In this document: in pieces, positions 2,810 to 5,225 of the stretch
How the letters are laid out: each line of letters starts with the position of its first letter
How positions within the stretch are numbered: the stretch's first letter is position 1
IMG/VR virus record: IMGVR_UViG_3300020185_000324
Coordinates: 1-20,319 of that record
DNA from: a virus
Length of the DNA: 20,319 nt
Strand: one strand, 5' to 3'
Notes under the pieces: model-generated
Database searches by the model: none
Seen by the model: only the letters and a program-made list of their open reading frames with translations
Told to the model about the DNA's origin: nothing
Position numbers and translations under genes: made by a program

Positions 2810-3019
2810 GAACTATTTAGCTATTTGTAAACTATTACCAGTATCAACACTTCACCTTTTTTGTTATCATTAGCAGCGCAGTAAGTCTTTGATCTATTTA
2901 GACTATTTAGTTGCAATATGCAATGCTATTTAGGTTCTATTTTGCCTCTTTTTTGTGGCTGTGCAGGTACAATAATAATCTACAGCAACATCGACCCTCC
3001 CCCGTCCCTAAATAGTAAC

Positions 3020-3038
3020 ACGAATCATTCTCATTAGC
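3020..3038 (-). promoter_or_regulatory. Weaker Fur-like box
   Basis: On the minus strand this reads GCTAATGAGAATGATTCGT, matching the classical 19-bp Fur consensus at 13 positions and sharing AATGAGAAT with the two stronger sites at 3067 and 3098. It is in inverted orientation to them. Confidence 0.45.
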
Positions 3039-3066
3039 GTTATTGTTAGCAACAGACTACGCAGAT

Positions 3067-3085
3067 GCGAATGAGAATCATTATC
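3067..3085 (+). promoter_or_regulatory. Fur-like iron box, copy A
   Basis: GCGAATGAGAATCATTATC matches the classical Fur consensus GATAATGATAATCATTATC at 16 of 19 positions, and in the 7-1-7 description (TGATAATnATTATCA) matches 13 of 14 specified bases. The same 20-bp string (including the preceding T) recurs 31 bp downstream, about three helical turns away. Fur is the host iron-responsive repressor. Whether this phage uses host Fur or another protein with a similar site is inference. Confidence 0.6.
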
Positions 3086-3097
3086 GTTTAGCCAGGT

Positions 3098-3116
3098 GCG
3101 AATGAGAATCATTATC
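3098..3116 (+). promoter_or_regulatory. Fur-like iron box, copy B
   Basis: This copy is identical to copy A over 20 bp (3097-3116). With the following A, TGAGAATCATTATCA matches every base of the 7-1-7 Fur consensus except one. A CTATTTAG motif follows 4 bp downstream and the LexA-type array begins 46 bp downstream. Confidence 0.62.
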
Positions 3117-3162
3117 ATTACTATTTAGATCTGCATTATCAGAGCGTGTGAGTCTGTGCTGG

Positions 3163-3216
3163 TACTGTACAGCCATACAGTACTGTACAGCCACACAATA
3201 CTGTACATCCATACAT
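3163..3216 (+). repeat. Three tandem 18-bp repeats containing LexA-type (SOS) boxes
   Basis: Units at 3163-3180, 3181-3198 and 3199-3216 share TACTGTACAKCCAYACA, each differing from the first at two positions. Unit 1 with its right flank reads TACTGTACAGCCATACAGTA, a perfect CTGT-N8-ACAG box with TA on both sides, as in the gammaproteobacterial LexA site; units 2 and 3 match 7 of the 8 conserved bases. The junction of units 1 and 2 is the perfect palindrome TACAGTACTGTA (3176-3187). Two readings are possible: SOS/LexA operators ahead of the early genes, or replication iterons, which also occur as tandem repeats of this length. Confidence 0.75.
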
Positions 3217-3382: not shown

Positions 3383-3568
3383 ATGGAAGACGCAAAAGTT
3401 TACTTAGCAGAGAGGACACCTGAAGGGTATGTTATACAGTCCGAGCGGGCAGCATCGATAGCTGACTTCAGGCTAACGATGAAGGAACTGGGCACGGTTT
3501 ACAATTCCGCGCTTGGTATTTGGGAATCAAATGACGGCCATGATTACTGGCCGGAGGAGCAATCATGA
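3383..3568 (+). CDS. Small acidic early protein of unknown function
   Basis: This 61-residue product is the first rightward gene after the control region. ATG at 3383 is preferred over TTG at 3371 because GGAG (3373-3376) sits 6 nt upstream of it. The protein is acidic, tryptophan-containing and ends in a segment rich in Asp, Glu and Trp (residues 47-61), with no membrane segment or motif I recognise. The stop overlaps the next ATG (ATGA). Small first-transcribed phage genes often encode host-takeover or anti-defence proteins, but nothing in this sequence shows that. Confidence 0.7.
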   Translation: MEDAKVYLAERTPEGYVIQSERAASIADFRLTMKELGTVYNSALGIWESNDGHDYWPEEQS

Positions 3569-3771
3569 AATATACATTCGAGCCGGAAGTAGTTTATGAG
3601 GCAGACAATGGTGAGACTGGCGTTTTGGCGCAGGTTGTTACGACCAGCAATATTCGCTGGAAGTTCAAGGTTGTCGTTCACGATGTCGATGAAGGCGAAA
3701 TTGTGGGCACCAAGTCTTTCGAACACCGGGACGATGCGGAAGCTTACGCCGATAGCTGTACCTTCGACTAA
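3565..3771 (+). CDS. Small acidic protein of unknown function, upstream of the ribozyme
   Basis: The 68-residue protein has a beta-rich look (VVTTSNIRWKFKVVVHDVDEGEIVG) followed by an acidic helix with DDAEAYADS. GGAGGAG lies just ahead of the ATG, which overlaps the previous stop codon. No family recognised. The stop codon (3769-3771) is immediately followed by the first base of the hammerhead ribozyme, so ribozyme cleavage would leave this gene and the one before it on the 5' product, ending in a 2',3'-cyclic phosphate hairpin. Confidence 0.75.
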   Translation: MKYTFEPEVVYEADNGETGVLAQVVTTSNIRWKFKVVVHDVDEGEIVGTKSFEHRDDAEAYADSCTFD

Positions 3772-3826
3772 CCACACTGATGAGCCTGTGAGACTCAGGC
3801 GAAACGCCCCCACGGGGTGTCTGTGG
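3772..3826 (+). ncRNA. Type I hammerhead self-cleaving ribozyme
   Basis: All core elements are present in order. Stem I 5' strand CCACA (3772-3776) pairs with UGUGG (3822-3826). Core CUGAUGA is at 3777-3783. Stem II pairs GCCUG (3784-3788) with CAGGC (3796-3800) around a 7-nt loop. GAA (3801-3803) follows, with A3804 pairing U3820. Stem III pairs CGCCCC (3805-3810) with GGGGUG (3814-3819) around loop CAC, including one G-U pair. The cleavage triplet is GUC, with cutting expected after C3821. Stems II and III are closed by loops and stem I is open, which defines type I. Stem I is short and no loop-loop tertiary contact is obvious. It lies on the coding strand between a small gene and the GP88 gene, so it would process the early mRNA. 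Confidence 0.93.
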
Positions 3827-3858
3827 AAGCCACCACTAATAAACACGAGGGTTAAACC

Positions 3859-4509
3859 ATGCTTAAACTTTCTAAAGCTTCAAAGATGCCGTGCCGTTCG
3901 TGGTCGCTGCAAGCGCTAGACACTTGTCCAGGTTCGCGAGATAAAAGCGGAGAACTTGTTCCGGCTTGTTCGGGATGTTATGCAACGGACGGTAATTATC
4001 GTTTTAAGAACGTTAAAGCGCCGCGCCTACACAATCGCGAGGATTGGAAACGCTCGGATTGGGTTGATGATATGGTCGCTGAATTAGACAATGATCGGCA
4101 TTTTCGGTGGTTTGATAGCGGCGACGTTTACGATGTCAGGTTAGCTAAAAAGATTTTTGAAGTATGCGAGCGCACGCCTTGGGTTAGTCATTGGATACCT
4201 ACGCGCATGCACAAATTCGCAAAGTTCAAGCCTGTACTTTCCGAGCTTGAAGCATTACCGAACGTGGTGGTTCGCTTGTCTAGCGACTCAATAACGGGAG
4301 AGACTATAAGAGGCGCGACTACTTCGACAATTACAACGCTTGACAATGTGCCAGAAAATGCGCAAATATGTGAAGCATACACGCGAGAAGGCAAGTGCAA
4401 AGCGTGCCGCGCTTGCTGGGATAAAACCGTGCAAGTGATAGCCTACATTGGACACGGTCGCTCAATGTTGAAACAGCAACGGAACGCTGACATAATTGCG
4501 GCAGCATAA
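3859..4509 (+). CDS. GP88-family phage protein with two cysteine clusters
   Basis: The 216-residue product resembles the phage GP88 family: CSGCYATDGNYRF (37-49), RWFDSGDVYD (83-92), HWIPTRMHKF (111-120) and the C-terminal CKACRACWDK (180-189) ending near IAYIGHGR. Cysteines C12, C23, C37, C40 and C171, C180, C183, C186 could hold metal, perhaps an iron-sulfur cluster; this is inferred from spacing, as the family's activity is unknown to me. The start has GAGGG upstream in a 37-nt leader created by the ribozyme cut. The gene is followed by the SprT-like gene, and a partial second copy of the 3' end lies at 5067, so this pair once existed twice. Confidence 0.75.
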   Translation: MLKLSKASKMPCRSWSLQALDTCPGSRDKSGELVPACSGCYATDGNYRFKNVKAPRLHNREDWKRSDWVDDMVAELDNDRHFRWFDSGDVYDVRLAKKIFEVCERTPWVSHWIPTRMHKFAKFKPVLSELEALPNVVVRLSSDSITGETIRGATTSTITTLDNVPENAQICEAYTREGKCKACRACWDKTVQVIAYIGHGRSMLKQQRNADIIAAA

Positions 4510-4528: not shown

Positions 4529-5065
4529 ATGGAAAGGGTAACCGAGGAATTTATAACGAGTATGGTGTGGGCATTCCATGAGGTTCTAGACAAAGAGCTC
4601 GAAGTTAAGCCGCACAATTACAAACACCCATTGCGCACAGTTGTAATAAATAAGAGGATGAAACGCGCATTAGGGCGCGCAAACATTAGAGGGCGTCTTG
4701 AGATAGCCGGTTTTTTTGTTGGGCTGGAAAAGACAGAAGACAACCTTGACCAATTATTTGACACTATCATGCATGAATTGGCGCACCTTTATGTAGGCAT
4801 TCAAGAAGGGCATAACAAAAAATGGCAGCGCATGGCGCTTTACATGGGCGCCAGGCCTGAAAGAGCGGCGAGGGCCAACGATGACATACAAAGAGCAACG
4901 CAGCCGCCATGGCTATTGGTAGCTACGCTATCGTCGGGCAAAATAGTAAAATGCAAAACAGCGTACAAAAGGACGTTTAAGTATTTGGAACGTCCAAGCG
5001 CCTATAGTATAAGCGGCGAAACGGTTCAAAGTTTCCAATGGATTAGACTATCAAAGGCGGCGTGA
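4529..5065 (+). CDS. SprT-like zinc metallopeptidase-type protein
   Basis: The 178-residue product carries the zinc signature HELAH (residues 82-86) with E83 as candidate catalytic base and a third ligand in GHNKKW (H95), the layout of SprT/Spartan-like domains. Cellular Spartan proteins cut proteins crosslinked to DNA; the phage role is unknown. The C-terminal part contains beta-strand-like segments without the CxxC zinc ribbon of many relatives. ATG 4529 is chosen for its AAAGGAG 8 nt upstream; an in-frame ATG at 4496 lies inside the GP88 gene. The C-terminus borders a duplicated sequence (5067-5225), showing past recombination at this gene's end. Confidence 0.75.
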   Translation: MERVTEEFITSMVWAFHEVLDKELEVKPHNYKHPLRTVVINKRMKRALGRANIRGRLEIAGFFVGLEKTEDNLDQLFDTIMHELAHLYVGIQEGHNKKWQRMALYMGARPERAARANDDIQRATQPPWLLVATLSSGKIVKCKTAYKRTFKYLERPSAYSISGETVQSFQWIRLSKAA

Positions 5066-5066
5066 A

Positions 5067-5225
5067 CGTGCCGTGCTTGCTGGGATAAAGCCGTCAAGGT
5101 GGTCGCGTACATTGGACACGGTCGTTCAATGTTGAAACAGCAACGGAACTCTGACATAATCGCAGCGGCATAACTTTTTTAAGGAGGGAGTGTTACTTAT
5201 GGAAAAATTGGAGCGCGAACAATGA
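5067..5225 (+). pseudogene. Remnant of a second GP88 3' end plus the start of a second SprT-like gene
   Basis: Bases 5067-5173 match 4403-4509 without gaps with about 13 differences in 107, mostly silent. In frame they encode the last 34 residues of the GP88 protein, CRACWDK to the stop. The copy continues through a similar Shine-Dalgarno (AAGGAGG) into ATGGAA at 5199, as at 4529, but this second reading frame stops after eight codons. A diverged tandem copy of the GP88-SprT pair has therefore been lost by deletion, leaving only the junction. The short frame ends in ATGA, which starts the next tiny gene. Confidence 0.85.

Follow-up and report, generated by a model that had tools for sequence, protein, structure and literature searches.

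Introduction

In phage T7, RNase III processing sites lie between the early genes. Hammerhead ribozymes (HHRs) of phages have been described as clustered elements that flank genes and that cleave both in vitro and in E. coli, and it was proposed that they convert long phage transcripts into mRNAs the length of an operon or a gene (Perreault et al., 2011; PMC3088659). The available part of that paper also covers HHphage of the haloviruses HF1/HF2, a hammerhead variant situated 13 nt upstream of a phage gene start and suggested, from a transcript 5' end, to be active in vivo; the same part describes neither a stop-codon placement rule nor a 5' hairpin. In the sections of the papers available to us, RiboJ is a synthetic part derived from sTRSV in which a hammerhead is followed by an added 23-nt hairpin (PMC8794103), and in E. 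coli it increases transcript levels about twofold and protein levels two- to tenfold (PMC6206723). The role of prokaryotic hammerheads is given as an open question of the field in the accessible part of a review (PMC6155905), and among the open-licence papers listed, no title or abstract opening mentions a stop-codon rule or a hairpin that captures stem I in phages. Here we describe an HHR at the boundary between a small ORF and the GP88 gene in the window, by which we mean the whole 20,319-nt stretch of viral DNA that was analysed, and compare it with its kin in other phages.

A type I hammerhead ribozyme between a small ORF and GP88

Positions 3772-3826 of the window form a complete type I HHR, which reads CCACA-CUGAUGA-GCCUG(UGAGACU)CAGGC-GAA-ACGCCCC(CAC)GGGGUGU-C^UGUGG. 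All features of the junction lie on the plus strand. Stem I is formed by the 5' strand CCACA (3772..3776) and the 3' strand UGUGG (3822..3826), which would also be the predicted 5' end of the GP88 mRNA; the catalytic core consists of CUGAUGA (3777..3783) and GAA (3801..3803); stem II is GCCUG/CAGGC with the loop UGAGACU, of the GUGAGA class (3784..3800); and stem III is ACGCCCC/GGGGUGU with the loop CAC and an A-U pair at the core (3804..3820). The three stems comprise 5, 5, and 7 pairs, respectively, with stem I open at both ends of the motif. All elements of the type I core (CUGANGA ... GAA, A15.1-U16.1, H17) are present, with A3804-U3820 and C3821, and the hammerhead consensus sets the predicted cleavage site at GUC^U (3821..3822). 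The minimum free energy fold of 3772-3826 is the hammerhead itself, at -22 kcal/mol. The window holds seven CUGANGA cores per strand, and the remaining HHR parts accompany only the one at 3772-3826; a structural descriptor that requires stems of at least 4 pairs and the full core gave this one site in the window versus none in 500 dinucleotide shuffles, both strands included.

The element is homologous to other natural hammerheads, as a covariance model of 32 other phage hammerheads, from which the window was left out, scored it at 69.5 bits (E = 1.5e-19). Covariation is seen in the stems of these 32 kin, with pairing counts that are to some extent a product of selection, as sequences with paired stems had been picked. 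Rfam at its gathering score gave no match for the window HHR, the best weak match being RAGATH-1-hammerhead (RF03152) at 20 bits, under the 56.3-bit gathering cut-off. At that score Rfam also gave no HHR in nine loci; the descriptor and/or the covariance model place HHRs in at least seven of them, and the failure therefore lies in the reach of the models; annotation at gathering score overlooked the ribozyme of the window together with those of the tested loci. A separate Rfam match, to abiF RNA (42.4 bits), was seen at 7273-7308 of L094. When the uncut 126-nt stretch 3750-3875 of the window is folded, the preferred structure has the downstream hairpin and no stem I (-32.8 kcal/mol), and the fold of 3750-3880 likewise favours the hairpin over stem I. 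The efficiency of cleavage in context is therefore uncertain.

The upstream ORF is small (68 codons, 3565..3771), had no Pfam match, and ends in a UAA stop codon (3769-3771) directly before stem I. Downstream, the GP88 gene (3859..4509; Pfam PF17338, E = 2.9e-32) begins with the ATG at 3859, 37 nt from the predicted cut at 3821/3822, and is preceded by a Shine-Dalgarno-like (SD) GAGGG (3847..3851). The sequence GAGGGTTAAACCATG at the GP88 SD position is common to L001, L002, L005, and the window. An earlier note on this DNA had the ribozyme filling nearly all of the 87-nt gap, and took the gap to be a rare one in a cluster where most neighbouring genes overlap. The HHR does lie in the gap, where it takes up 55 of the 87 nt (63%) and leaves 32 nt after 3826; the setting was misjudged, since genes overlap at 10 of 21 junctions and there are five gaps of at least 50 nt (87, 211, 95, 55, and 109), as counted from simple ORF calls in which two start codons are approximate. 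Sigma-70-like promoters with 9 to 11 of 12 matches occur in three of the four other gaps of at least 50 nt, and the best sigma-70-like match in the GP88 gap reaches at most 6 of 12. Elsewhere in the window, the region from the terminase genes to the early genes (3009-3119) contains three repeats around AATGAGAATCATTATC that we take to resemble Fur boxes, and three 18-nt direct repeats with ACTGTACA, arranged head to tail at 3162-3215 ahead of the early genes, are a possible operator.

Relatives of the flanking genes

Relatives of GP88 were found in 80 IMG/VR loci and two GenBank entries, two of these relatives lacking upstream sequence. In the 80 that have upstream sequence, GP88 is never directly preceded by an HHR, not even in L001 and L002, whose GP88 is 98% identical to that of the window. 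An HHR pattern anywhere in the contig was found in two of 80 GP88 contigs (L047 and L052), at 472 and 228 nt upstream of GP88, respectively. Since almost all of these GP88 relatives are without an HHR, GP88 does not need one, and these counts rule out the HHR as an element that belongs to GP88. A promoter-like palindrome is present within 110 nt before GP88 in 29 of the 80 loci (20 of one class and 9 of another, the classes having been set after the sequences had been inspected). Promoter-like palindromes with long inverted arms were seen in gene gaps, before GP88 in L007, L008, L022, L037, L055, and others, and behind the upstream-ORF relative in L438; these gene-gap palindromes may be either promoter-operators or structured RNAs.

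The upstream ORF has six relatives in IMG/VR, and what follows them varies. In L436 the relative runs into a type I HHR (E = 3.5e-12 by the covariance model) whose core UGA is the stop codon, and a different gene comes next. In L437 it is followed by a type III-like, HHR-like element that by eye has an extra U at stem II and an irregular core, in L438 by a palindrome, and in L439-L441 the gap is absent. Four of the six relatives have neither a clear HHR nor an HHR-like element behind them. L437 contains two hammerhead-like elements, one of type I and one type III-like; one lies at 5010-5070 and one follows the stop at 3084, and in both an extra U comes behind CUGAUGA. The differing content before the relatives of GP88 and behind those of the upstream ORF indicates that what lies at this junction is exchanged between phages. 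The same gene pair was not found among the relatives of either gene, the upstream ORF had no tblastn match in phages, and a blastn search of phages with the gap returned only three matches at E = 3, all to the gap end. Applied to 57 loci, the covariance model gave five HHR matches in four loci (L052, L047, L437, and L436 twice), L047 and the L052 contig (as L426) having themselves been in the building set of the model, and one further match at chance level.

Phage hammerheads often sit at stop codons

Pattern scans of IMG/VR combined with the structural descriptor yielded at least 309 deduplicated type I HHRs. Among the matches listed, set 1 was reduced from 178 to 129, window included, and set 2 from 255 raw matches, 10 of them kin, to 180, in both cases by removal of near copies (>0.8 alike); excluded before counting were L083, which duplicates the window, and any site lying within 60 nt of a locus end. 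Because the collecting patterns require GTC behind the core, they are biased towards type I. A GTC-free scan gave 88 classified sites in the 80 loci listed, namely 55 of type I, 19 of type III, 10 weak or none, and 4 at edges. L463 carries three type III HHRs, with an ATG a few bases downstream of two stem III strands.

Among the matches listed, an upstream ORF of at least 50 codons ends between -10 and +3 nt of the core in 210 of the 309 type I HHRs, versus 18.1 ± 3.8 expected from same-strand random positions. The core UGA is itself the stop of an ORF of at least 50 codons in 64 of the 309 listed matches (21%), versus 11% of other CTGA. An SD and a start codon lie downstream of 171 of the 309 HHRs among the matches listed, at a median cut-to-start distance of 30 nt (middle half 25.5-37), and for set 1, again among the matches listed, the frequency was 82/129 versus 110/645 at random positions. 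A placement rule emerges in which the stop codon lies on or in the ribozyme and the cut falls about 30 nt before the next start.

A possible 5' hairpin on the predicted cleavage product

In the cut RNA of the window, the freed strand of stem I could form the hairpin GUGG-AAGCCA-CCAC (3823..3836), which is exclusive with stem I and has a predicted energy of -4.5 kcal/mol versus -5.1 for the free stem I duplex. The hairpin is equalled by 13% of shuffles and is therefore only suggestive for the window locus alone. In many HHRs the leader past the cut contains a second copy of the stem I 5' strand, with which the freed strand can pair, as in GUGG-AUCC-CCAC of L091 and GCGG-GAAA-CCGC of L208; one hairpin in L528, GUGGG-AAGCCA-CCCAC, has a loop identical to that of the window. 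Hairpins were counted if the helix started at product nt 1-4 with a loop of 3-8 and a weight of at least 10, and each leader was shuffled to give the null. Among the matches listed, 64 of the 309 HHRs have such a hairpin, versus 35.8 ± 5.3 expected (reached in 0 of 1000 shuffles), and the excess resides in those with a GC-rich stem I (42/115 versus 16.5 ± 3.7; 0 of 1000 shuffles), with none for AU-rich stem I (22/194 versus 19.6). Restricting the matches listed to one HHR per contig gave 46/224 versus 26.1 and, with GC-rich stem I, 31/87 versus 12.1, neither reached in 500 shuffles. Taken separately, and among the matches listed, set 1 has 33/129 versus 16.2 ± 3.7 and set 2 has 31/180 versus 19.7 ± 4.2, the count for set 2 having been attained by at least one of 400 own-tail shuffles (shuffle maximum 35).

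The hairpin was first noticed on set 1, and the GC split was found on sets 1 and 2 together and fixed before set 3 was inspected. Set 3 comprises 36 HHRs left from 46 after removal of near copies, among the matches listed, and 27 of the 36 come from bacterial and archaeal genomes. In this pre-set test the hairpin was found in 13 of the 22 listed matches with a GC-rich stem I, versus 5.4 ± 2.0 expected (0 of 1000 shuffles), and no excess was seen for AU-rich stem I (1/14 versus 1.2, among the matches listed). Control hairpins that start 8-11 nt in showed no excess among the matches listed (28/309 versus 24.5), nor did they in set 3 (2/36 versus 4.5, among the matches listed), nor did an upstream mirror control, again among the matches listed. 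Where stem I is GC-rich, the freed strand and the leader can form a 5' hairpin in far more cases than chance would give, which is a new observation. That the excess is limited to a strong stem I would fit a role in the release of a tightly held strand.

Proposed function of the ribozyme

We consider it likely that the HHR forms the boundary between the small ORF and GP88, with the predicted cut and a 5' hairpin on the new mRNA. In the proposed mechanism, the type I HHR would mark this boundary in the early transcript and, once RNA has been made up to 3826, would fold and cut between 3821 and 3822. The 3' end of the upstream mRNA would keep the ribozyme body with its GC-rich stem III and, by known hammerhead chemistry, would carry a 2',3'-cyclic phosphate, and the GP88 mRNA would begin with a 5'-OH and a 37-nt leader with the SD, followed by the start codon. 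Base pairing of the freed stem I strand with the leader (GUGG-AAGCCA-CCAC) could follow; product release would thereby become irreversible, and the new mRNA would carry a fold at its 5' end. We infer that the RNA is cleaved in the cell and that this alters its stability and translation. The processing suggested in the earlier note, by which the HHR separates small genes from GP88, fits both the anatomy and the placement statistics, with the cut itself a predicted one, but its detail of a site switch is not supported; the note thus had the direction right and some details wrong. The anatomy and the population statistics are best read as a cut by the HHR that separates the small genes from GP88, a reading that they support in part. 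That phage hammerheads process mRNA has already been proposed (PMC3088659) and is not new here.

The hairpin could also be viewed as a brake that forms before cleavage and leaves part of the transcripts uncut, for instance in such a way that a ribosome on the upstream stop codon covers the other strand of stem I. The mutual exclusion of hairpin and stem I, the fold of 3750-3875 that favours the hairpin, and the stop codon that abuts or lies inside the ribozyme in 210/309 HHRs among the matches listed would all be in keeping with a brake, but the ribozyme is transcribed earlier and may cut before the leader arm exists, and the hairpin of the window is not stronger than the free stem I duplex, so we regard a brake as rather unlikely. 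We hold it to be unlikely, too, that the HHR acts chiefly for the upstream small gene, whose mRNA would thereby acquire a defined and structured 3' end, and that GP88 is an accidental neighbour. GP88 relatives are without the HHR, and the upstream-gene relative in L436 has an HHR with another gene downstream and that in L437 an HHR-like element, yet four of the six upstream-gene relatives have no HHR behind them, and an SD and start follow at a narrow distance in 171/309 HHRs among the matches listed.

In the switch proposed in the earlier note, UGUGG added to the base of stem III could hide or expose GAGGG, depending on cleavage. UGUGG is instead the 3' strand of stem I, and in the uncut RNA GAGGG is predicted to pair with ACCUUCG (3760..3766) at the end of the upstream ORF. 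A cut that exposes a GP88 ribosome site masked by this sequence would agree with the modelled probability that the SD is unpaired in the window (0.006 before and 0.21 after the cut, against 0.19 when the upstream sequence is shuffled). Over the 171 HHRs with an SD and start among the matches listed, however, the effect is absent (0.481 natural versus 0.477 with shuffled upstream sequence, p = 0.42), and the rise to 0.614 in the cut product of these 171 listed matches is what a shorter RNA would show. A general ribosome-site switch is not supported by these figures, and for the window such exposure is very unlikely, given that ribosomes translating the upstream ORF would open the ACCUUCG pairing and that the SD of the product is still mostly paired in the model. 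We consider it highly improbable that the HHR is a relic or passenger with no present effect on expression: junction content does turn over fast among relatives, but the core and stems are intact, covariation is seen in the 32 kin (partly by selection), and the placement is far from random.

Comparison with known systems

Returning to the HHR as a transcript boundary, we tentatively extend it, with slightly less than even confidence, to a view of phage HHRs as operon punctuation placed on stop codons that replaces an internal promoter or RNase site, in which, where stem I is strong, the freed strand is captured by a second copy of the stem I 5' strand in the leader, so that the cut cannot be reversed and the new mRNA is capped by a hairpin. 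If true, phages would have a natural equivalent of the synthetic insulator RiboJ that Rfam largely misses. From the placement rule and the 5' hairpin follow predictions, concrete enough to test, about the ends and stability of mRNAs and about expression ratios in phage operons.

The RNase III sites of T7 and the window HHR are alike in that an early phage transcript is cut at gene junctions, although T7 processing needs a host enzyme whereas the window RNA would cut itself. The window HHR shares its core, three stems, gene-junction placement, and proposed processing with the type I phage and prophage hammerheads in the available part of PMC3088659, and is unlike the phage hammerheads of that paper in having no Rfam match at gathering score. 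HHphage of HF1/HF2, as far as that part of the paper describes it, is a variant hammerhead of an archaeal virus, whereas the window HHR has a consensus core and a 37-nt leader. The arrangement of RiboJ, as given in the portions of its papers available to us, is like the one that the window may have, with a hammerhead, a hairpin directly downstream, and then the expression signals of the next gene; in RiboJ, however, the hairpin was added, whereas that of the window, equalled as it is by 13% of shuffles, would reuse the freed strand of stem I.
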